The notes under the pieces: model-generated | Databases searched by the model: none | Seen by the model: only the letters and a program-made list of their open reading frames with translations | What the model was told of the DNA's origin: nothing | Part shown: piece by piece, positions 22,921 to 34,381 of the stretch | Position numbering within the stretch: the stretch's first letter is position 1 | Layout of the letters: each line of letters begins with the position of its first letter | Made by a program: the position numbers and the translations under genes | Virus record (IMG/VR): IMGVR_UViG_3300042112_000707 | Location: 1 to 34,381 of that record | DNA from: a virus | Strand: one strand, 5' to 3' | DNA length: 34,381 bases

Positions 22921-23202
22921 ATGGAATGGGCAGGTGTCGCGATTCTAACCGCAATCGTCGCATACCTTTCGCTTCGCGTTCGTCGCCTTGAGCGCGACCT
23001 GCGAAGTCTTCATTTGCGGTGGCACGATGCGGCCAGCCGCGCGATGCGGCGGCATCGACGCGAGCGGTACTTTCGGCGGCAAGTGGACGGGATTCTGCGC
23101 ATCGTCTGCCGAGAAACGCTGCCGGGGCTCGACGTGCCAGACTTGCTGGAAGGACCGCCGGACGATCCCGACACGCCCACCGGCGATTCCGACATGCTAT
23201 AA
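22921..23202 (+). CDS. Small N-terminally anchored membrane protein, 93 aa
   Basis: Residues about 2-19 (EWAGVAILTAIVAYLSLRV) form one membrane helix, followed by a very Arg/His-rich helix (about 20-55) and an acidic Pro/Asp tail ending in GDSDML. The start is ATG 22921, 10 bp after the previous stop, with no obvious ribosome site. Such a shape could be an inner-membrane spanin subunit or a holin/antiholin partner. The exported protein gene downstream would then be the outer-membrane partner, which is inference only. The last codons overlap the TATAAT of the promoter candidate at 23195-23203. Confidence 0.55.
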   Translation: MEWAGVAILTAIVAYLSLRVRRLERDLRSLHLRWHDAASRAMRRHRRERYFRRQVDGILRIVCRETLPGLDVPDLLEGPPDDPDTPTGDSDML

Positions 23203-23203
23203 T
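23195..23203 (+). promoter_or_regulatory. Extended -10 promoter candidate (TGCTATAAT)
   Basis: TGCTATAAT is a perfect extended -10 element (TGn plus the sigma70 consensus hexamer at 23198-23203). The -35 position (about 23175-23180, GCCCAC) is poor, which extended -10 promoters tolerate. A transcript would begin near 23210, giving a leader of about 70 nt before the exported-protein gene. AT-rich hexamers of this quality are rare in this high-GC sequence. Confidence 0.5.
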
Positions 23204-26698: not shown

Positions 26699-27210
26699 GT
26701 CGTCCCCTTCTCCGCCGCGCGGCGGGCGCGGTGATGGTCCCATGCGCGCCAATAGGTTTCGGCGTCGATCTTCTCCGTCGTTCCGAAGATGGAGTTGTGC
26801 GTCTTGGTTCCGGCCGAGTAGAAGCCGTCGCACGCCTTCCGCTCCGCGTCGCGTTCCTTCATCGTCGAGTGCAGAAGGTTGCGCATGGCCAGCACGTTGT
26901 CCACAACGCCTTCAACCGTGAGGCTATGGTCGTCTGGGTCGTTCTCGGGGGAGACGATGTTGAGGATCGCGTCGAGCGCCGCGCGCAGCCGCTCGACTTC
27001 GGCCACGAGGGCGGGAATGTCGTTGCGGGAGTGCTGAACGAAGTCGGCGTTCGCGTCCAACGTGACGTATGCGATGTGCAACAGGTCTTTCGTGACGATT
27101 TCCCAGATGTGTCGTCCCGCCATGCGCATCCGCCAGATGCTTCCGTCGCGGTACGGCTCGCTGGTCGTCGCCTTCTCCGCCCGCTCCTTGATCTTCCCGA
27201 TGTCAAGCAT
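26695..27210 (-). CDS. Ead/Ea22-like protein, 171 aa
   Basis: It opens MLDIGKIKERAEKATTSEPYRDG. The middle holds ANADFVQHSRNDIPALVAE followed by VERLRAALDAIL (near residues 53-83). This Asn-Ala-Asp-Phe...Asp-Ile-Pro-Ala-Leu...Glu-Val-Glu-Arg-Leu phrase is the hallmark of the Ead/Ea22-like family in early operons of temperate phages, whose biochemical role is unknown. The C-terminus is mosaic (SAGTKTHNSIFG, then an Ala/Arg tail). The start overlaps the upstream alanine-rich gene by 8 bp. Confidence 0.7.
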   Translation of the reverse strand: MLDIGKIKERAEKATTSEPYRDGSIWRMRMAGRHIWEIVTKDLLHIAYVTLDANADFVQHSRNDIPALVAEVERLRAALDAILNIVSPENDPDDHSLTVEGVVDNVLAMRNLLHSTMKERDAERKACDGFYSAGTKTHNSIFGTTEKIDAETYWRAWDHHRARRAAEKGTT

Positions 27211-27751
27211 GGTCGGACTCCTTCAACGGCCACGTCGGATAGTGCCGTCGCACAACGTCGGCGCACTCGCTTAGGACGCGCGAACAGGCGGCGTCGTAGG
27301 CGGCGGCGTAGGCGGCGGCGTAGGCGGCGGCGTCGGCGGCGTAGGCGGCGGCGGCGGCGGCGTCGGCGGCGTAGGCGGCGCGGGCGGCGGCGCGGGCGGC
27401 GGCGCGGGCGGCGGCGTAGGCGGCGTCGTAGGCGGCGGCGCGTATATCGGACATAGATACATCATCGCCCCGCGCGAAGCGGTCGCACAGATCCAACGTC
27501 GCACGCACTCGCCCGTCTCCCGGTCGGCGATGCTCAAAGATCGGGAGCGCCAAACGCGCGCACTCGGCGGCGGCTCCGACAAGTCGGCGGCGTCCTTCCG
27601 ACATAGGCGGCCCCGCGAGCTTTCCGCAGAGCCAAAGCATCCAGTCTCCGCGTTCACAAGCCGCCCAAATGGTCGGGCCGTCCTTGTCGGAAGCCCAATC
27701 CAACGCCTCGCGGCACGCCCCCATCGCACTCAGTTTGTCTTGGACGGTCAT
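27203..27751 (-). CDS. Alanine-rich repeat protein, Imm-5-like (paralogue A), 182 aa
   Basis: The folded N-terminal part has GACREALDWASDKDGPTIW (residues 11-29), ACERGDWMLWL (31-41) and an Arg/Ala helix ending LALPIFEHRRPGDGRVR (near 68-84). A low-complexity run (about 103-155) follows in which Tyr, Asp or Arg recurs roughly every four residues among alanines. The C-terminus CSRVLSECADVVRRHYP (156-172) closes the domain. This set matches proteins usually annotated as putative immunity protein (Imm-5) in phages and bacteria; their function is not established. The start ATG overlaps the previous stop (ATGA). A homologue lies at 33986 on the other strand. Confidence 0.75.
   Translation of the reverse strand: MTVQDKLSAMGACREALDWASDKDGPTIWAACERGDWMLWLCGKLAGPPMSEGRRRLVGAAAECARLALPIFEHRRPGDGRVRATLDLCDRFARGDDVSMSDIRAAAYDAAYAAARAAARAAARAAYAADAAAAAAYAADAAAYAAAYAAAYDAACSRVLSECADVVRRHYPTWPLKESDHA
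27287..27452 (-). repeat. Low-complexity GCC-rich array coding AAAY/D/R
   Basis: On the minus strand, GCC codons alternate with TAC, GAC and CGC roughly every fourth codon. The unit is about 12 bp with a few slips. It encodes the Ala/Tyr/Asp/Arg helix of paralogue A. The array invites replication slippage and produces arginine-rich shadow frames on the plus strand. Confidence 0.8.
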
Positions 27752-28443
27752 TGGTTGGCCTCCGCTTCCGCCGCGTCGATCGACAGCGCCAAATCGATCA
27801 TGGCGTCGAGGTGGCGGGTTCGTGGCAAGTATGCGGCGTTTTCGATGGCGGCGGCGGCGGCGTCGGCGGCCAAGGCGGCGTAGGCGGCGTAGGCGGCGTC
27901 GGCGGCGGCGGCGTAGGCGGCGGCGGCGTCGGCGGCGTAGGCGGCGGCGGCGGCGGCGGCGTAGGCGGCGGCGGCGACGTAGGCGGAGGCGTCGGCGTCG
28001 GCGGCGGCGTCGGCGGCGTCGGCAGCGTCTCGCATCTCCCCCATCGTCGCCGTTGGCGGCAACGACGCCAGCCGGTCGGCTTGATCCGTCATCCCAGCGG
28101 CTCGCAACGCCTCCGCCGCGATCACCGTGACGGCGTACCGTGCGACCGCTTCCGCGCGTCGTCTCGTCGTCTCGTCGTCGCGCCGCGAACCGATGATCCG
28201 GTCGATCATCGGCAATGCCCATTGTTTGCGAAGCTCGCCGTCCATCGGCAAGTCGTTCCGCGCGATCGCCAGCCTGCGAACGACGGGGCACGCGCAGTCC
28301 AGTACGTCGGTCGCCTCACCAAGAGGCTCGCCGCGCGAGACGCGCAGCTTCGCGACGGCGGCAGACATGATGCACGCGGTGCCTTTGGCGGGATTGCCCG
28401 CACCGATCACGAAGGTAAGCGTAGACGGGTCGAAGGTGGTCAT
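27748..28443 (-). CDS. Alanine-rich repeat protein (paralogue B type), 231 aa
   Basis: The start ATG at 28443 has AAGGA nine bases upstream. The N-terminal part reads TFDPSTLTFVIGAGNPAKG (2-20) and CIMSAAVAKLRVSRGEPLG (23-41). It continues with DCACPVVRRLAIARNDLP (near 48-65), then IDRIIGSRRDDETTRRRAE (near 78-96). I recall this order from phage proteins that share the alanine-rich tails of Imm-5-like proteins. Residues about 142-205 are an Ala-rich run with Tyr and Asp, and the C-terminus AAYLPRTRHLDAMIDLALS is ordered. The stop overlaps the start of paralogue A, so the two are translated together. Function is unknown; a shared role is likely from the common repeat and coupling. Confidence 0.72.
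   Translation of the reverse strand: MTTFDPSTLTFVIGAGNPAKGTACIMSAAVAKLRVSRGEPLGEATDVLDCACPVVRRLAIARNDLPMDGELRKQWALPMIDRIIGSRRDDETTRRRAEAVARYAVTVIAAEALRAAGMTDQADRLASLPPTATMGEMRDAADAADAAADADASAYVAAAAYAAAAAAAYAADAAAAYAAAADAAYAAYAALAADAAAAAIENAAYLPRTRHLDAMIDLALSIDAAEAEANQ
27846..28027 (-). repeat. Low-complexity GCC-rich array coding Ala/Tyr/Asp
   Basis: This is a second GCC-dominated array on the minus strand. Units of GCC, TAC and GAC codons encode the Ala/Tyr/Asp run of the upstream alanine-rich gene. It is less regular than the array at 34280, with runs of up to seven alanines. Confidence 0.8.
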
Positions 28444-28724
28444 TGGAGTTCCTTTTCCGCCGCGTCGAGGGCGGCGTCGATGGGTGCGTAGGAGCAAGTC
28501 TCGCCGTGCTTTTCGTAATGGCCGCATCCGTAGCACTGCCACTGGAAACCGATCGACGGAGGAACGCGCCGCCACGGCCTTTCCACCGCCGCCCGCACGA
28601 TGGCGATCAGCACGGGCGCGGCGTTCACAGCGGCGATATGGCCTTCGCTCGGCTTCATCAGATCCGGCGTCGCCTTCGCCGCCTTCGCGTCGAGGTCGTC
28701 GAGCCACGCCTTAAGCGCGCTCAC
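28440..28724 (-). CDS. Small protein with Cys knuckle, 94 aa
   Basis: The protein begins with GTG overlapping the previous stop (GTGA at 28724-28721): SALKAWLDDLDAKAAKATP. Residues about 64-78 have CYGCGHYEKHGETC, a short Cys/His cluster able to bind one zinc ion. The C-terminus is helical (PIDAALDAAEKELQ). The start MSALKAWLDDL...P plus AAPVLIAIVRAAVE resembles Ead-type modules of early operons. Function unknown. The stop overlaps the next ATG (ATGA). Confidence 0.65.
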   Translation of the reverse strand: MSALKAWLDDLDAKAAKATPDLMKPSEGHIAAVNAAPVLIAIVRAAVERPWRRVPPSIGFQWQCYGCGHYEKHGETCSYAPIDAALDAAEKELQ

Positions 28725-29023
28725 TTCGCACCGCCTTTGCCGTCGAGGCGGGAGAGGAAGGCGCGGGCGTCAGCGACAATCTCGAAAAACGAGCGGTTGG
28801 TTTGAACTTCGTGCCACGCCAAAAACTCTCGCAGCAGCGCCACCGCCTCGCCGTCATCCTTCGCGGGATCGGCCTTCCACGGCGCGACTCCGGCGGCTTC
28901 GAGGGCGTCGGCGTCCTTATTGGCACGATCAATCGCGTCGCGGAACGGAACGCACAGCGCGCGATGCGTCGTCATTTTGTCGTACTTTTCCGCGCGATGA
29001 AGAACCCACTTATTCCTAGTCAT
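28721..29023 (-). CDS. Hypothetical early protein, 100 aa
   Basis: The protein starts MTRNKWVLHRAEKYDK with a ribosome site GAGGACGAG just upstream. It is first after a 142-bp gap, so it may head a transcription unit of its own. The C-terminal part ALLREFLAWHEVQTNRSFFE then IVADARAFLSRLDGKG is a phrase common to small phage early proteins of unknown role. The preceding gap holds a hairpin and an 11-bp inverted repeat. The stop overlaps the next GTG. Confidence 0.65.
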   Translation of the reverse strand: MTRNKWVLHRAEKYDKMTTHRALCVPFRDAIDRANKDADALEAAGVAPWKADPAKDDGEAVALLREFLAWHEVQTNRSFFEIVADARAFLSRLDGKGGAK

Positions 29024-29043
29024 CTCGTCCTCGATCTAAAAGC

Positions 29044-29105
29044 GCCGCCGCGGCTCGCGGTGTGCGACGTAGAAACGCAAAAGGAAGGTCGCGCGCCGCG
29101 GCGGC
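29044..29105. repeat. 11-bp inverted repeat, 40-bp spacer (operator candidate)
   Basis: GCCGCCGCGGC at 29044-29054 is the exact reverse complement of GCCGCGGCGGC at 29095-29105. Each arm is itself nearly palindromic (GCCGCGGC), a shape suited to dimeric regulators. It lies upstream of the gene starting at 29023, where an operon-internal promoter could be. No convincing -35/-10 pair was found. High GC makes chance matches easier. Confidence 0.4.
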
Positions 29106-29117
29106 ATTGATTGAAAT

Positions 29118-29145
29118 GGCCCCCTACAAACGCAACTCGGGGGCC
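29118..29145 (-). terminator. Hairpin, possible weak terminator
   Basis: GGCCCCC (29118-29124) and GGGGGCC (29139-29145) form a 7-bp all-GC stem with a 14-nt loop. Read leftward, the stem is followed by ATTTCAATC, a short T-containing tract. It lies 20 bp after the stop of the gene at 29166, so it could partly end transcription of the recombination genes. Confidence 0.42.
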
Positions 29146-29165
29146 GCCCCGGAAACGCTCCGAGG

Positions 29166-29663
29166 CTATTCGTCTTGCCCGGGCTCGCGCTCGGGCGGAA
29201 TCTCCTCGTCGGGCGTAGGCTCCTCGGTCGCAGCCGCTTCGGGCGCGTCGTCGATCGGAGCTTTGAGCTTGCCGATCGGCGTCGCGGGATCGAGCGCCTT
29301 GGCCCGAATGCGCACGGCGCACACGGTCTTGTTGCCGAACTTGACCTTGGTGTCCACGAACAGCGCGACCTTCTTTCCGTACCAGTCCGCCGTGCTGCTG
29401 CCGTAGGCGGCGATGAGCGAACGCAGGTTGGTCGCGTTCAACACCAATTCGCGATCGACGTTCTTGAACTTGAGGGAACCGACGTCCGATTTGACGTCTT
29501 TCAGCTTAGTCCCGGGGCGCGCGAACTCCACGCGCTTGCGGTACCGAACTTCCTCGATTTCGACGACGATGTCGGAATCGAGGGACAGCATTTCAAACGT
29601 GATCCACGGCGTCGACCGCAGGCGGCCCGCCACGCCGGTGAACTTCTGAAACGACTCGGTCAT
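29166..29663 (-). CDS. Conserved phage protein next to RecE-like nuclease, 165 aa
   Basis: The protein starts MTESFQKFTGVAGRL at an ATG overlapping the previous stop (ATGA). The core contains KNVDRELVLNATNLRSLIAA, then YGSSTADWYGKKVALFVDT, then CAVRIRAKA, a phrase set shared by many phage proteins encoded beside recombination nucleases (LNxTN...L...G..T..W.GK...L). The C-terminus (about 130-165) is an acidic Pro/Glu-rich tail like that of single-strand-binding proteins. A DNA-binding or recombination-accessory role is inferred from neighbours; no enzymatic motif is seen. Confidence 0.7.
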   Translation of the reverse strand: MTESFQKFTGVAGRLRSTPWITFEMLSLDSDIVVEIEEVRYRKRVEFARPGTKLKDVKSDVGSLKFKNVDRELVLNATNLRSLIAAYGSSTADWYGKKVALFVDTKVKFGNKTVCAVRIRAKALDPATPIGKLKAPIDDAPEAAATEEPTPDEEIPPEREPGQDE

Positions 29664-30481
29664 GCGTTCTCGCTTTCGTCCACGAGGGACAGCAGATCGG
29701 AAGACGCGGGCATGTCGATGACTTGCCACTCGTCCGGGGTGCCCGGCCAAACTCCGCTTCGCTGGCACTCCAGCAAGCGATCCAGCGTCCGTTGGTTCTC
29801 GCACGCGAGCACGTCCAAGTCGTTCTCTTTGAGCTCGACGAGCCACACGTGATGCGGCGGCTTCGGATGCACGACGACGAGCCGCGCCCCGGCGACGCGC
29901 AAGCCGCACGTTTGCAGGCCCGTGCGATAGTGCGCGGCTTGGTGCATCCAGCCCTCCGCCCACGCTCGGAACGGCACGGACCGTTCGCACGCGAAGCGGC
30001 TGACCTTCAAGTCGTAGATGTAGTCGTCGGCGAAGAAGTCGAGGCGGCCCTTGCAGACCGCGCCGTGTTGCGACCACAGCACCGACAGCTCGACCGTTTG
30101 CGCTTCCGTCGCTTTCGCAAGCGCCTCGGCCGCCGCGCGCTTGGCAAGGAACGCCCCGGCCACGCCGCGAACGATCTCGGCTTGCGTCGCCGAAAGAATC
30201 TCGAACTCGGCGTGCTCAAGTTTCCACGCCTTGCCCTCTTTCGTGGCGAAGCTCATGCCGTCCGGCTTGAAGCGGTAGCGCTCGGCGAAGCGCTGCGGCT
30301 CGAGGATCGCCATGTGGCACGCCGTGCCGAGTTGCATCGCGTCGGTGGGCTCGTCGTTCTGCGCGCGGCGCCACGGCACCAAGGCCGGGGGGCCTTCGCG
30401 CATCGCCTTCAAGTCCGACGATCCCCACGCGGGCAGGGCGTGATACTCCGCCGCGGCGTAGTTTTTGAGAATCTGATTCAC
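29660..30481 (-). CDS. RecE-like PD-(D/E)XK exonuclease, 273 aa
   Basis: The motif order is that of the RecE/YqaJ-type nucleases of phage recombination: LGTACHMAILEPQRF (51-65), Glu131 in VELSVLW, GRLDFF with Asp148 (145-150), YDLKVS with Asp157 and Lys159 (156-161), and QAAHYRTGL (181-189) with the conserved Gln and Tyr. The enzyme would resect double-stranded ends to make 3' tails. It starts with GTG at 30481 overlapping the ATPase stop (GTGA). Usually such a nuclease is paired with an annealing protein, but none was recognised nearby. It ends in an acidic stretch (SLVDESENA). Confidence 0.82.
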   Translation of the reverse strand: MNQILKNYAAAEYHALPAWGSSDLKAMREGPPALVPWRRAQNDEPTDAMQLGTACHMAILEPQRFAERYRFKPDGMSFATKEGKAWKLEHAEFEILSATQAEIVRGVAGAFLAKRAAAEALAKATEAQTVELSVLWSQHGAVCKGRLDFFADDYIYDLKVSRFACERSVPFRAWAEGWMHQAAHYRTGLQTCGLRVAGARLVVVHPKPPHHVWLVELKENDLDVLACENQRTLDRLLECQRSGVWPGTPDEWQVIDMPASSDLLSLVDESENA

Positions 30482-31674
30482 GCTTGCGGCTCCTGCACGC
30501 GGCCGTCCTCGATGATGATGGAGCACTCCTCGCCGTGGCCGACCCGTTCGATCCACAGCTGCGCCGCGCCGTCCTTCACCTGCGTCGCGAGCAGCTTGAG
30601 GCTTTCGTCGTCGAGCAGCGAGCCGTCGCGAATGAGCATCACGCGAAGGGTCGGATTCATCGCGAGCCCCATCGCGACGCTGACGCGCAACTTCTCCGCC
30701 GCGCTCGCCTGCGAGAACGGGACGCCGCGGTAGGTGACGCCGTCCTCGGACAGCGACAGGCCCTCCACGGGCATCTTGGCCCGGGCGATCATGTCCGCCT
30801 TCTCGCGGTCGATCGCCTCGATTTCGGCGGTGAGCTCGTCCGACACCTTCTGCTGCCGCTGCGCCGCGTCGGTCGCGGTGCGGTGCGAGTAGTTCTGCCG
30901 AATGAGCTTGTTGGTCGCCTGCGCGTTGGCGATCTCGGAAGCCAGCGAGGAAACGTCCGGCACTTCGGCCGCCGCGGTCGGCTCGAGCGTGATGATTTGT
31001 TGCTCGGCGGCGGCGATCTTCTCGCGCCACTCCGCGATCGAACGCCGAAGGTTGGCGATGACCGTGCGCGCCGCGTTGGTCTCCCGCGCGCGCTCCATCA
31101 TTTGATCGCGGCGATCGACCAAGTCTTGCAAGACGATCTCTTGCTCGGGCAAGTCGGGCGTGAACGTCGCCGAAGCGGCCTGCGCGCGCAAGCGATCCCG
31201 CTCGCGGTTCACTTCCGTGCGTCGCGCGTAGGTCTTTTCGCGCCGCTCGTTGAGCATCGTGAAGTCGAGTCCGACGACGCGCCGCAGCATTTCGATTTGC
31301 GACGAGTGCTTGGCGCGCGAGAACTCAAGCGGATCGAACGTCAGCGAGCCCGTGATCTTGTCGAGCAGCGCTTGCGGCGACGAGAACCGCTCGCCTTCGC
31401 GCCCCTTCACGACGAGCTTTTCCCCGCGTCCGAACGTGCGTTCGACCACGTACTTGCCGAGGTCGACCGTGATGGTCGCTTGATCCTCCCCGTGCCGGAT
31501 CGGCTCTTCGGGAGCCGCGTCACGCCCGCCCAATGCGGCCATGATCGCATCGAGCACCGAGGATTTTCCCTGCGCGTTGCGGCCGCCGATGACCACCATC
31601 CCCGATTCGTCGGGCGTGATCTCGACCGCTTCGAGGCGCTTGAAGTTTTGCGCCGAGAGCTTCACTACTTGCAT
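30478..31674 (-). CDS. SMC/Rad50-like AAA ATPase, 398 aa
   Basis: The Walker A GGRNAQGKSS lies at residues 30-39. A central coiled coil (about 135-300) separates it from a signature SQASAAEKLRVS (321-332) and a Walker B-like LRVMLIRDGSLLD (343-355). The ABC/SMC head is thus split around a short arm with no zinc hook. The usual Asp-Glu pair is Asp-Gly here, as I recall for related phage ATPases. Partnered with the RecE-like nuclease it may act in double-strand-break processing. The ATG at 31674 has GGAG six bases upstream and is preferred to the upstream GTG-type reading. It is the first gene of the leftward operon. Confidence 0.85.
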   Translation of the reverse strand: MQVVKLSAQNFKRLEAVEITPDESGMVVIGGRNAQGKSSVLDAIMAALGGRDAAPEEPIRHGEDQATITVDLGKYVVERTFGRGEKLVVKGREGERFSSPQALLDKITGSLTFDPLEFSRAKHSSQIEMLRRVVGLDFTMLNERREKTYARRTEVNRERDRLRAQAASATFTPDLPEQEIVLQDLVDRRDQMMERARETNAARTVIANLRRSIAEWREKIAAAEQQIITLEPTAAAEVPDVSSLASEIANAQATNKLIRQNYSHRTATDAAQRQQKVSDELTAEIEAIDREKADMIARAKMPVEGLSLSEDGVTYRGVPFSQASAAEKLRVSVAMGLAMNPTLRVMLIRDGSLLDDESLKLLATQVKDGAAQLWIERVGHGEECSIIIEDGRVQEPQA

Positions 31675-31710
31675 GCGTTTCTCCGCGACGCGCCGGCGCC
31701 GCACGCGCTC

Positions 31711-31739
31711 TTTATACAGCGTCGGAAATCTTTGTGCAA
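31711..31739 (-). promoter_or_regulatory. Leftward sigma70 promoter (early operon)
   Basis: On the minus strand, TTGCAC (31739-31734) and TATAAA (31716-31711) are separated by exactly 17 bp. A start near 31704 leaves a leader of about 30 nt with GGAG before the ATPase ATG at 31674. The -35 is four of six and the -10 five of six to consensus. Confidence 0.75.
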
Positions 31740-31745
31740 GCCCCG

Positions 31746-31774
31746 TTGCGTTTTCTTTTCCGTCGCTCTATACT
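31746..31774 (+). promoter_or_regulatory. Rightward sigma70 promoter with start at the ATG (leaderless)
   Basis: TTGCGT (31746-31751) and TATACT (31769-31774) are separated by 17 bp. Transcription would begin near 31780-31782, at the A of the ATG of the HTH gene, and no ribosome site is present. The two divergent -35 boxes are 6 bp apart and include the inverted pair GCAA...TTGC (31736-31739, 31746-31749), a possible operator. Confidence 0.72.
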
Positions 31775-31781
31775 CTCGCCC

Positions 31782-31991
31782 ATGACCCACTGGTTAACGG
31801 TCGTGCAAGCTGCGCAACGGAAGGGCGTGACCGAACGCACCGTGCGCAACTGGATCAGAGACGGCGTACTGCGCGCCACCCTGCGCACGCCCGAAGACAT
31901 CGAGCCCGTCTTGCACGTCGATCGAGACTTGCTCGATCGAGTTCCCAAGCTGGCGGTCGGCGTGAAAAGAGGAGCGAAGCGTGTCCGATAA
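31782..31991 (+). CDS. Helix-turn-helix regulator (excisionase/MerR-like), 69 aa
   Basis: The protein is short. Residues 5-30 (LTVVQAAQRKG, VTERTVRNWIRDGVLRA) form a helix-turn-helix of the excisionase/MerR type. A basic tail (KRGAKRVR) follows. It faces the early operon across a divergent promoter pair and is probably the regulator of that switch. Excisionase-like function cannot be excluded, although no integrase is seen. The start is ATG 31782, with no ribosome site, matching a leaderless message. The next gene starts 11 bp before its end. Confidence 0.78.
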   Translation: MTHWLTVVQAAQRKGVTERTVRNWIRDGVLRATLRTPEDIEPVLHVDRDLLDRVPKLAVGVKRGAKRVR

Positions 31992-32241
31992 CGAGGAATC
32001 CCTGCGTCGCGAATCCGTGAAGGCGCGTCAGCAGCGCGTGTGCTTCTACCTGATGCGCGCCGGAACGGCGTTGGGGGCGGCCATACGCGATTTGCAGAAG
32101 GCGATGGACCTGCACGGAGCGGCGCTGCAGATGGACGGCATGATGCCTTCCGAGGAGGATTGCCGAGCGATCGCCACGCTTATCATTAACGAGGAGCGCG
32201 CCGCCGCGGGAGCTCCGCCCAAGCCGAGGATCATCACGTGA
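31981..32241 (+). CDS. Hypothetical helical protein, 86 aa
   Basis: The GTG start at 31981 has GAGGAG upstream and overlaps the HTH gene by 11 bp. The protein is helical, with SLRRESVKARQQRVCFYLMR near residues 7-26 and a segment with two Met-rich turns (ALQMDGMMP near 48-56). It ends in PPKPRIIT. No family was recognised. The tight overlap places it in the regulator's operon. Confidence 0.65.
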   Translation: MSDNEESLRRESVKARQQRVCFYLMRAGTALGAAIRDLQKAMDLHGAALQMDGMMPSEEDCRAIATLIINEERAAAGAPPKPRIIT

Positions 32242-32393
32242 AATTCGTCGGCGGCGAACTGGACGGCTACGACGTGCCGGTCGAACTGGTCGAAGTAACC
32301 GACCACGTGTTTTCGATCGACCGGGCGCGGTGCTGGTTGCTCGTGCGTCGCGACGACGGCGTCCTCGTATTCGAGATTTTCAATGCTCCTTGA
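32238..32393 (+). CDS. Small hypothetical protein, 51 aa
   Basis: A GTG-initiated frame overlapping the previous stop (GTGA). It encodes [19 protein letters not shown] and [19 protein letters not shown], a compact, strand-rich sequence. It overlaps the methyltransferase gene by 11 bp. The balanced composition and double overlap support a real gene. Function unknown. Confidence 0.55.
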
Positions 32394-33165
32394 ACGAGTC
32401 GAGATCGGGCCGCACGTGCTCTATCGCGCGGACTGCCGCGACGTGCTGCCGCTCGCCGACGCCGACGTGTGCGTCACCGACCCGCCCTACGGCGAAACGT
32501 CGTTGGCTTGGGATCGGCGCGTCGACGGGTGGCTCGACGCGCTTCGCACCGTGCAACTTTGGTGCTTCGGCTCGTTGTCGATGTTCATGGAGCGGTCCGC
32601 AGACTTCTTGCGGTTCGGCACGAAGGCCCAAGAAATCGTGTGGGAAAAGCACAACGGATCGAACTTCCACGCCGATCGCTTTCGGCGCGTTCACGAATTG
32701 TTCGTGCATTTCTATCGCGGGGCGTGGTCCGACTTGTACCGCTCCGTACAGACGACGCCCGACGCCGTCCGGCGCGTCGTTCGCCTCAAACGCAAGGCGC
32801 CGCATCACACCGGCGCGATCGAGCCCGCGCCCTACTCTTCGGAAGACGGCGGGCCGCGGCTCGCCCGCTCCGTGATGCGCGTGGCTTCGGCGCACGGCTA
32901 TGCCGAGCATCCCACCCAAAAGCCGGTCGCGATCATCACACCCGCCGTCGCCTACTCGTGCCCGGCGGGTGGCGTCGTGCTCGACCCTTTTATGGGCAGC
33001 GGCTCTACCGGAGTTGCGTGCGCACGGCTCGGCCGCCGCTTTATCGGAATCGAAATCGACGAAACGTACTTCCGCATCGCGTGCCGTCGCATCGCCGACG
33101 CCGTGAACGGAGGAGTACAACCTAATTTGTTCGACTCGGAGGCATTCACCCAAGGAGGGGATTGA
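32383..33165 (+). CDS. DNA N6-adenine/N4-cytosine methyltransferase (DPPY class)
   Basis: A 260-aa enzyme with the catalytic motif DPPYG at 33-37. Its C-terminal part has HPTQKP (176-181), [10 protein letters not shown] (201-210) and IGIEID (221-226). The order catalytic motif then SAM-binding motif marks the beta class. The ATG at 32383 overlaps the previous gene. Methylation of phage DNA would shield it from host restriction or tune gene expression. No cognate nuclease is adjacent, so it is probably an orphan. The C-terminus ends in [14 protein letters not shown]. It is the last clear gene before the terminator region. Confidence 0.9.
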
Positions 33166-33334
33166 TCGTCCCTCATGCAGTCCGCCGTCATCGGGGCGCG
33201 CACCTGCGAGTTCGACTGCTCACGTTCTCAGCGACGGATCGGTCGTTGCAAAGCGCGCAACTTTCTCACACGCCGGGAGCCGTGTTGCAACGGCGGAAGC
33301 TCCCATCAGATTCTCTCGAGCCGGGTGGTTCGGG
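33166..33334 (+). ncRNA. Structured leader or small RNA candidate
   Basis: This stretch between the methyltransferase and the terminator has several potential stems. GTTGC (33245-33249) faces GCAAC (33257-33261). GGGAG (33276-33280) faces CTCCC (33300-33304), enclosing CCGT/ACGG. Together with the terminator it could form a leader controlling the gene at 33400, or a small RNA ending in the T-run. No promoter was seen at its 5' side, so it would be made by readthrough or processing. A 61-codon frame occupies most of it (separate entry). Confidence 0.4.
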
Positions 33335-33360
33335 GCCGCCTGCGCCGCATTCGTGGCTAA
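33175..33360 (+). CDS. Possible small Cys/Arg-rich protein, 61 aa
   Basis: ATG 33175 opens a frame MQSAVIGARTCEFDCSRSQR with five Cys in all (CEFDC, RC, CC). It ends in the loop of the terminator hairpin, so its last residues (GRLRRIRG) come from the stem sequence. The GGAGGGG upstream is 13 bp away, too far for a good ribosome site. The Cys spacing could bind a metal, but the frame may be accidental. Confidence 0.28.
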   Translation: MQSAVIGARTCEFDCSRSQRRIGRCKARNFLTRREPCCNGGSSHQILSSRVVRGRLRRIRG

Positions 33361-33386
33361 AAAGCGTGCGGCGCGGGCGGTTTTTT
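33335..33386 (+). terminator. Strong Rho-independent terminator
   Basis: CCGCCTGCGCCGCA (33336-33349) pairs with TGCGGCGCGGGCGG (33367-33380), a 14-bp stem with a single G-U pair and a 17-nt loop, followed directly by TTTTTT (33381-33386). This is the clearest terminator in the window. It lies 14 bp before the start of the next gene, between the methyltransferase operon and the secreted protein. That fits either plain termination or attenuation. Confidence 0.85.
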
Positions 33387-33399
33387 CTTCGGAGGCAAC

Positions 33400-33702
33400 A
33401 TGAAAACTCTCCTCGTCCTCGCCGCGCTCGCCGCGGCCGCGTCCGGCCAGATCGCTTGGCGGCGCGTCGACTACCCTTGCGATCCCGTGCCCTTCGCCAT
33501 TTCCGTCATGGTCGAGCGGTGCCCCGGCGGAGAAGTCATCTGGGCGCGTTCCTTCGCGCCGCCCGAGCCGTGCGTCGGATACGTCAACGTCCCCGTCAAC
33601 ATCGCGGACGCTCCCGCCCGCTGGCGCGTCATCACCTACACGCTCACGGCGAACGGCCCGATGCCGACCTCTTGGACGGAATGGGGGATCGGATGCCCGT
33701 GA
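33400..33702 (+). CDS. Secreted protein, 100 aa
   Basis: The protein starts with a clear signal peptide (MKTLLVLAALAAAASG, likely cut before Gln17), preceded by a ribosome site GGAGG. The mature part of about 84 residues is beta-rich with four Cys (near residues 27, 41, 58 and 99) that may form two disulfides. It has strands such as EVIWARSFAP and ARWRVITYTLTANGPM. An immunoglobulin- or fibronectin-like fold is suggested but not sure. An exported small phage protein in an accessory position could block superinfection or change the host surface. No family was recognised. Confidence 0.7.
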   Translation: MKTLLVLAALAAAASGQIAWRRVDYPCDPVPFAISVMVERCPGGEVIWARSFAPPEPCVGYVNVPVNIADAPARWRVITYTLTANGPMPTSWTEWGIGCP

Positions 33703-33989
33703 CCTACCAACACGGAGAGGCACCGGCGGATGCGCCGGTGACGTGGCAAGAAAACAGCGAAGCCTTTGACATCGGAGGCCATGAAGGATCTCCGGTTTGG
33801 GTATTCCTCGACAAAAATACGCACGTTGTGAGCGACGCCGACTCAATCTGCCGCGCCTTCCACTTGGCGAAGCTTGCGAAGGATGCTGCCCCGTGCGTTC
33901 AACGCGCCGCCGACGACGAAGACTTTGAACGCGCGCAACCGGCCGCCGACTGGCTCCGCCGCTTCCGCGCGGCGAAGGGGGACGCGTGA
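33693..33989 (+). CDS. Hypothetical protein, 98 aa
   Basis: ATG 33693 (MPVTYQHGEAPADAPVTW) has GGGGGA five bases upstream and overlaps the secreted-protein gene by 10 bp; ATG 33681 is a possible alternative adding four residues. A beta-rich first half contains GSPVWVFLDKNTHVVSDADS. A helical second half is rich in Ala and Asp (RAADDEDFERAQPAADWLRRF). No family was recognised. The stop overlaps the next GTG (GTGA). Confidence 0.6.
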   Translation: MPVTYQHGEAPADAPVTWQENSEAFDIGGHEGSPVWVFLDKNTHVVSDADSICRAFHLAKLAKDAAPCVQRAADDEDFERAQPAADWLRRFRAAKGDA

Positions 33990-34381
33990 GTATCCATAGC
34001 GACCTGATCCGACTCGGCGCGTGCGAAAAAGCTCGCATTTGGGCCGATGACAAAGACGAAGCCGTGATCTGGGCGACCTGTCCGCACACCGAATGGATGT
34101 TCTGGTGGATCGGCGCTACGAAACCGGACGGCTACGAGCGAGACTTGCGGTGTATTGCCGCCGACATCGCGGAGATGGTGCTGCCGATTTACGAAATCGA
34201 CTATCCCGGCGATGATCGACCGCGCAAGGCCATCGCGGCGGCGCGTGACTACGCGCACGGACGTATCGACGCCTCCGCACGGGCCGCCGCAGGGGCCGCC
34301 GCAGGGGCCGCCGCATGGGACGCCGCAGGGGACGCCGCATGGGCCGCCGCACGGGCCGCCGCACGGGCCGCCGCAGGGGAC
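33986..34381 (+). CDS. Alanine-rich repeat protein, Imm-5-like (paralogue C), cut by window end
   Basis: The GTG at 33986 overlaps the previous stop (GTGA). The folded part is clearly homologous to the gene at 27203: GACEKARIWADDKDEAVIW (residues 11-29), ATC (30-32), TEWMFWWIGA (36-45), then MVLPIYEIDYPGDDRPRKA (near 66-84). It then enters a repeat of the unit [Arg/Gly/Trp]-[Ala/Asp]-Ala-Ala in which the gene runs off the window; the expected C-terminal CADVVR block is missing. The type is usually annotated as putative immunity protein, Imm-5. The Trp-containing repeat differs from the Tyr/Asp repeats of the other two. Confidence 0.72.
   Translation, partial: MSIHSDLIRLGACEKARIWADDKDEAVIWATCPHTEWMFWWIGATKPDGYERDLRCIAADIAEMVLPIYEIDYPGDDRPRKAIAAARDYAHGRIDASARAAAGAAAGAAAWDAAGDAAWAAARAAARAAAGD
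34280..34381 (+). repeat. 8.5 copies of a 12-bp tandem repeat
   Basis: Eight exact-length units starting at 34280, 34292, 34304, 34316, 34328, 34340, 34352 and 34364, plus half a unit to the end. All are of the form [CGT]GGG[CA]CGCCGCA. Only bases 1 and 5 vary, switching Arg/Gly/Trp and Ala/Asp. Regular length with point variation at two coding positions suggests selected diversity or recent slippage. Confidence 0.88.

Follow-up and report, generated by a model that had tools for sequence, protein, structure and literature searches.

A candidate divergent early control region in a phage: mirror-image promoters, a box shared with a third promoter, and a predicted leaderless HTH regulator

Introduction

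What is controlled by two promoter-like sequences that face away from one another, when a small helix-turn-helix (HTH) protein is encoded immediately beyond one of them and a DNA-metabolism operon beyond the other? This question is raised by the intergenic region at 31675–31781 of a 34,381-base virus record, the whole of which we refer to as the window. The initial annotation of the region answered it with a lysis/lysogeny-like switch, likening the regulator to leaderless lambda cI. Here we consider in turn the genome in which the region lies, the promoters, the sequence that they share, the start of the HTH gene, the proteins that may act on the promoters, and the known systems with which the arrangement can be compared.

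Genome Map and Gene Neighborhood

A relative in IMG/VR, the 48,036-b contig G001, is 99.9% identical to the window over 26,782–34,379, continues past the end of the window and re-enters at its start, so that the joined map is a circle of 44,946 bp; the two ends of this contig overlap each other at 98.9% identity, which marks a strain variant. Map coordinates above 34,381 are read from G001, and those given for L131 equal the map coordinate minus 36,980. The genome is probably that of a podovirus-like phage of ~45 kb. Alanine-rich, highly repetitive protein tails are encoded on both genome arms (window 27203–28448, minus strand, and 33986–34381, plus strand), and as the window ends inside such a repeat, the assembly probably broke there.

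The leftward operon begins with a 398-aa SbcC/RecN-like ATPase (phrog_1499; 30478–31674, minus strand) and includes an exonuclease VIII-like gene (DUF3799, PD-(D/E)XK; 29660–30481, minus strand), a C5 DNA methylase and an HNH endonuclease. The ATPase gene is leadered, with a Shine-Dalgarno sequence (GGAG; 31681–31684, minus strand) 6 nt before its ATG and a leader of ~30 nt. On the plus strand, the rightward run consists of the HTH gene (31782–31991), an 86-aa ORF (31981–32241) that overlaps the HTH stop and has the Shine-Dalgarno sequence AGAGGAG, a 51-aa ORF (32238–32393), and a 260-aa DNA N6/N4 methyltransferase (32383–33165; PF01555, E = 5e-29; 48% to Mx8 Mox), with a helicase further downstream; the two small ORFs have no family match above cutoff. 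Relatives of the methyltransferase (Mx8, Chloroflexi and proteobacterial) are not decisive for the host. Rfam gave zero matches within the window, and a search for a T7-type RNA polymerase was uninformative, its controls giving no match.

Two Back-to-Back Promoters

The rightward promoter, P_right (31746–31774, plus strand), consists of a -35 box TTGCGT (31746–31751), a 17-bp spacer and a -10 box TATACT (31769–31774). The leftward one, P_left (31711–31739, minus strand), has TTGCAC (31739–31734) and TATAAA (31716–31711), again 17 bp apart. They are near mirror images pointing away from each other, with 6 bp (GCCCCG, 31740–31745) between the -35 boxes; the minus-strand CGGGGCTTGC block at this linker recurs at a third promoter, P3. 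Each -35 box matches the consensus TTGACA at only three of six positions, and both promoters therefore escape a generic promoter scan that requires at least 4/6.

How readily such a pair arises by chance was gauged in 20,000 dinucleotide shuffles of the 107-bp intergenic region, filtered for a TTG-type -35 with a 5/6 -10. A single promoter of this kind appeared in 0.95% of the shuffles, and a pair on opposite strands in none of the 20,000. When the filter (TTG plus 5/6 -10, spacing 16–18) was applied to the ~44.9-kb map, three sites passed genome-wide—P_right, P_left and P3—all within or at intergenic regions. The sequence itself, the genome scan and the shuffles support a real back-to-back pair from which a host sigma70-type RNA polymerase would transcribe in both directions, and here the initial annotation, which had described two sigma70-type promoters with exact 17-bp spacers and 6 bp between their -35 boxes, was accurate.

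A Spacer Box Shared by Three Promoters

P3 (map 40,943–40,915, minus strand) is read from G001 and lies outside the window; it adjoins a second HTH_17 gene (HTH2) and is upstream of a gene run that includes a DUF932 gene. The three promoters were chosen by their hexamers alone, and all have in common the in-register pattern TTGC-N7-TTTCCG-N6-TATAMT with 0–1 mismatches each. The TTTCCG box, a candidate operator half, is at 31757–31762 in P_right (plus strand) and at 31723–31728 in P_left (minus strand; CGGAAA on the plus strand). At ≤1 mismatch, this pattern (defined from the very sites on which it was tested) was observed at 3 sites vs. 0 in 300 order-2 Markov genomes, and at ≤3 mismatches at 4 sites vs. 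0.14 expected. TTTCCG by itself is frequent (45 copies); a six-base in-register run common to three random spacers has P of about 7e-6. Since the box occupies the same place in all three spacers, the three promoters would form one regulon, and the P3 copy suggests one shared early-gene control switch rather than a lysogeny switch.

Where, then, would a control element for both directions lie? An inverted GCAA...TTGC pair had been proposed as a single operator. This pair does span both -35 boxes, but its 4-bp arms are merely those boxes, without extension, and we rejected the dyad as an independent operator. The symmetry reaches beyond the -35 boxes: CGGAAA (31723–31728) and TTTCCG (31757–31762), with flanking AGCG/CGCT and then TATA, share the same centre, and the arms paired outward from it read TTGC, TTTCCG, CGCT and TATA, with diverged stretches in between. 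The idea of one element serving both promoters survives in the shared TTTCCG boxes, a candidate better placed in the spacers than at -35.

The three promoters could also be alike by duplication, serving as constitutive early promoters for the host RNA polymerase with no shared regulator; CGGGGCTTGC-N6-ATTTCCGA, common to P_left and P3, could in that case reflect descent. However, the conserved blocks are interrupted by fully diverged segments, as selection on the blocks predicts, and P_right kept the box despite being inverted relative to P_left. We therefore consider common descent without regulation improbable. In a scan of all viral contigs for GGGGCTTGC-N6-ATTTCCG, the matches outside this phage were unrelated (one has TATAAG at N5) and none had a well-placed -10, so that we attribute them to chance.

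Two further sites in the map resemble these promoters. A possible fourth, weaker copy of the motif with 3 mismatches (L131 7285–7257, minus strand; map 44265) falls within the beginning of the gene at map 44246, aimed at a primase-like gene. TATAAT without a mismatch occurs just once in the ~45-kb map (window 23198–23203, plus strand), where it overlaps the stop of a 93-aa gene, has ATTCCG at a spacing equal to that of the TTTCCG box, and is a possible promoter for the genes downstream.

A Predicted Leaderless Start

The P_right -10 is followed by 7 nt and then by the ATG at 31782, the A of which is the earliest purine within the usual range of start distances. No Shine-Dalgarno sequence was found upstream of 31782, where the anti-Shine-Dalgarno duplex is +1.0 kcal/mol; the median over the other genes is about -6. 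In Actinobacteria and Deinococcus-Thermus, leaderless genes have TANNNT about 10–12 nt before the start codon and no Shine-Dalgarno sequence (PMC3160421), and the HTH gene shows the same features (TATACT N7 ATG).

This arrangement extends beyond a single gene. Among 54 gene starts surveyed for TANNNT-to-start distance, TANNNT lies 5–9 nt before the start in seven (window 2082, 22921, 25256 on the minus strand, and 31782; map 41176 on the minus strand, 41849 and 44246). Counted as sites, 8 fall in the five distances 5–9 vs. 4 in the 50 others (P = 1.6e-6), and the excess holds for purely mechanical longest-ORF starts, with which the HTH gene drops out (6 vs. 5; P = 1.7e-4). The genes with TANNNT starts also have weaker Shine-Dalgarno pairing than the remaining genes (one-sided P = 9e-4). 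Leaderless initiation of the HTH gene is thus likely, judged from these spacings, and its mRNA would be translated without a leader; the missing Shine-Dalgarno sequence and the TANNNT peak agree with the earlier prediction that the rightward transcript begins at the HTH ATG without a ribosome site. More broadly, TANNNT-to-start distance lets leaderless starts be inferred from one phage genome, and their presence in the phage hints at a host with leaderless genes.

The HTH gene might instead begin at GTG 31734 (giving 85 aa) under an unseen promoter further left, in which case the leaderless promoter would be fortuitous. While the frame is open from this GTG and a weak GGAA lies upstream, the genome scan contains no plus-strand promoter-like site upstream of it, the added stretch, which would cross the -35 boxes, has codon usage only at the 5th percentile of genuine coding pieces, and residue 4 of the 69-aa form is already the first of the HTH_17 domain. 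We find the longer form scarcely credible.

Candidate Regulators of the Box

The 69-aa protein matches Pfam HTH_17 at 27.7 bits, just above the cutoff of 27, and its PHROG matches are MerR-like and excisionase. An AlphaFold model of low confidence (pLDDT 64), made without an alignment, has a helix-turn-helix and a beta wing. Its best PDB match, mycobacteriophage Pukovnik Xis (4j2n; 34% identity over 47 columns), is weak (E 0.23, prob 0.54), so the structure search is only suggestive of an Xis-like protein, and the present phage differs from the Pukovnik case in that no integrase was found.

The box is probably bound by this 69-aa excisionase/MerR-like protein, which would repress the divergent early promoters. 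Specifically, the reading that we favor, with a confidence somewhat above even, is a divergent early control region in which the TTTCCG box is shared by three promoters and the leaderless HTH protein most likely binds it and represses all three. The leftward transcript would then deliver recombination/replication genes behind an ordinary leader with a Shine-Dalgarno sequence, and the rightward transcript, starting at the first base of the HTH ATG, would deliver the HTH regulator, the two small genes and the DNA methyltransferase. As the first product of P_right, the HTH protein would bind TTTCCG and, on accumulating, shut down P_right, P_left and P3.

We infer the sign of this regulation from the spacers. 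MerR activators work on overlong spacers of 19–20 bp; here the spacers are already at the optimal 17 bp, which favors repression over activation of the MerR type. The likeness to MerR-type promoters lies in the position of the (candidate) regulator site between -35 and -10 and in a MerR/excisionase-like HTH; the differences lie in spacer length and in the effector domain, which is absent here. Each spacer contains a single TTTCCG box, with no dyad seen within it, and 17-bp spacers of this kind do not fit a MerR-type promoter.

Alternatively, the protein that recognizes the box could be HTH2 or a transcription factor of the host; the promoters would then share their control, but their regulator would not be the product of the leaderless gene. 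HTH2 is a second 69-aa HTH_17 protein (L131 3987–4196, minus strand; 30.3 bits; TAGACT N6 ATG) whose gene ends about 24 nt before P3. The box could belong to either HTH protein, HTH2 being an equal candidate for its binding. Weighing on the other side, the HTH gene begins right at P_right, and regulators encoded first in a divergent early region often autoregulate. A host factor or HTH2 acting in place of the leaderless protein is possible but, in our judgment, doubtful.

Under the favored reading of an autoregulating HTH protein, three elements would add up to a small control module that lends itself to testing: the mirror-image pair of promoters with the box in their spacers, an excisionase-like regulator with a predicted leaderless start, and a further promoter copy from which a regulon is predicted. 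The phage lineage has no close relative beyond G001 in the searched collections.

Lysis or Lysogeny

A true lysis/lysogeny-like switch, with the HTH protein as prophage repressor in the manner of leaderless lambda cI, would account for the divergent geometry and the leaderless regulator. It has a parallel in PY54, whose cI and cro mRNAs are both leaderless and come from divergent promoters (PMC4488713); a perfect parS in G001 could serve an extrachromosomal prophage. In the lambda switch one operator set serves two divergent promoters, and the TTTCCG boxes present in both promoters here might or might not act as one. Speaking against such a switch, searches for tyrosine integrases (PF00589), serine integrases (PF00239) and HTH_3 proteins of the CI/Cro type (PF01381) gave no match in the window record or in G001, although they matched 14/14, 10/14 and 14/14 control genomes, respectively. 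Left and right operons alike carry DNA-metabolism genes, and no second repressor lies opposite the HTH gene. Furthermore, HTH_17 is a different family from that of CI, and as leaderless starts are a genome-wide habit of this phage, they put no cI-specific mark on the HTH gene. We thus depart from the initial annotation in both respects, the switch and the likeness to lambda cI, and hold a lysogeny switch to be very unlikely.

We give a similarly slim chance to a phage without integrase in which the three-promoter early regulon is under a leaderless HTH_17 autoregulator that also chooses between lysis and ParB/parS-held extrachromosomal maintenance. The host's ParB would in this case hold the element via the perfect parS beside a putative origin.

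The parS itself, a perfect 16-bp bacterial chromosomal site (TGTTTCACGTGAAACA; L131 4244–4259, map 41224–41239), is in G001, outside the window, and lies in a noncoding region of 673 bp. Viral contigs contain at least 120 stretches with exactly this sequence. In the same noncoding region, at L131 4602–4851, iteron-like repeats (three exact 12-bp copies of GGTGTGGGTACGG or its inverse) and a 26-nt inverted repeat (AAAACGTCCCGAAGG...) together are a candidate replication origin.

Comparison With Known Systems

The nearest mapped precedent is the telomere phage PY54, in which the leaderless cI and cro mRNAs from divergent promoters were RACE-mapped to the AUG (PMC4488713). Both phages have divergent promoters at a regulator region and a leaderless regulator (predicted from sequence here, RACE-mapped there), yet PY54 sets two opposing repressors, CI and Cro, against each other, whereas here one regulator of another family, HTH_17, stands opposite a DNA-metabolism ATPase. 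With lambda cI and PRM the region shares a regulator mRNA predicted to begin at the AUG; it differs in that no CI/Cro-type protein or integrase was found and in that leaderless starts extend well beyond the regulator in this phage.

Controller (C) proteins of restriction-modification systems offer another comparison, the AhdI C gene being leaderless and EcoRV having divergent overlapping promoters (PMC5333194). Here too a small HTH regulator is tied to a DNA methyltransferase, with a leaderless start as in AhdI and divergent promoters as in EcoRV, but the methyltransferase is downstream of the HTH gene rather than divergent from it. Only the M gene is present, no restriction gene being recognised among the scanned proteins. 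C proteins are of the HTH_3 type. With an HTH_17 regulator and no recognised R gene, we rejected C-protein-controlled restriction-modification. As the defining features of the lambda switch, the C-protein systems and the MerR promoters are not all present, we assign the region to none of them; it appears to behave as a set of divergent early promoters that have a candidate operator in common.

Relatives and Strain Variation

Searches of IMG/VR by the HTH, capsid and portal proteins returned the one 99.9% identical genome and two distant HTH matches, and the divergent arrangement is absent from these two. As the searched collections hold no sufficiently divergent relative, no phylogenetic footprint of the box is possible. 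The ATPase has relatives at 79 loci (about 30% identity); by inspection, none of the 43 with upstream genes listed has a divergent HTH_17 gene beside it, and at one locus (L006) the upstream genes include an HTH-like one in the same orientation. Between the window and G001, eight of the nine differences over 7.6 kb fall inside 31276–31534, a 260-bp stretch of the ATPase gene that looks like a recombination tract.
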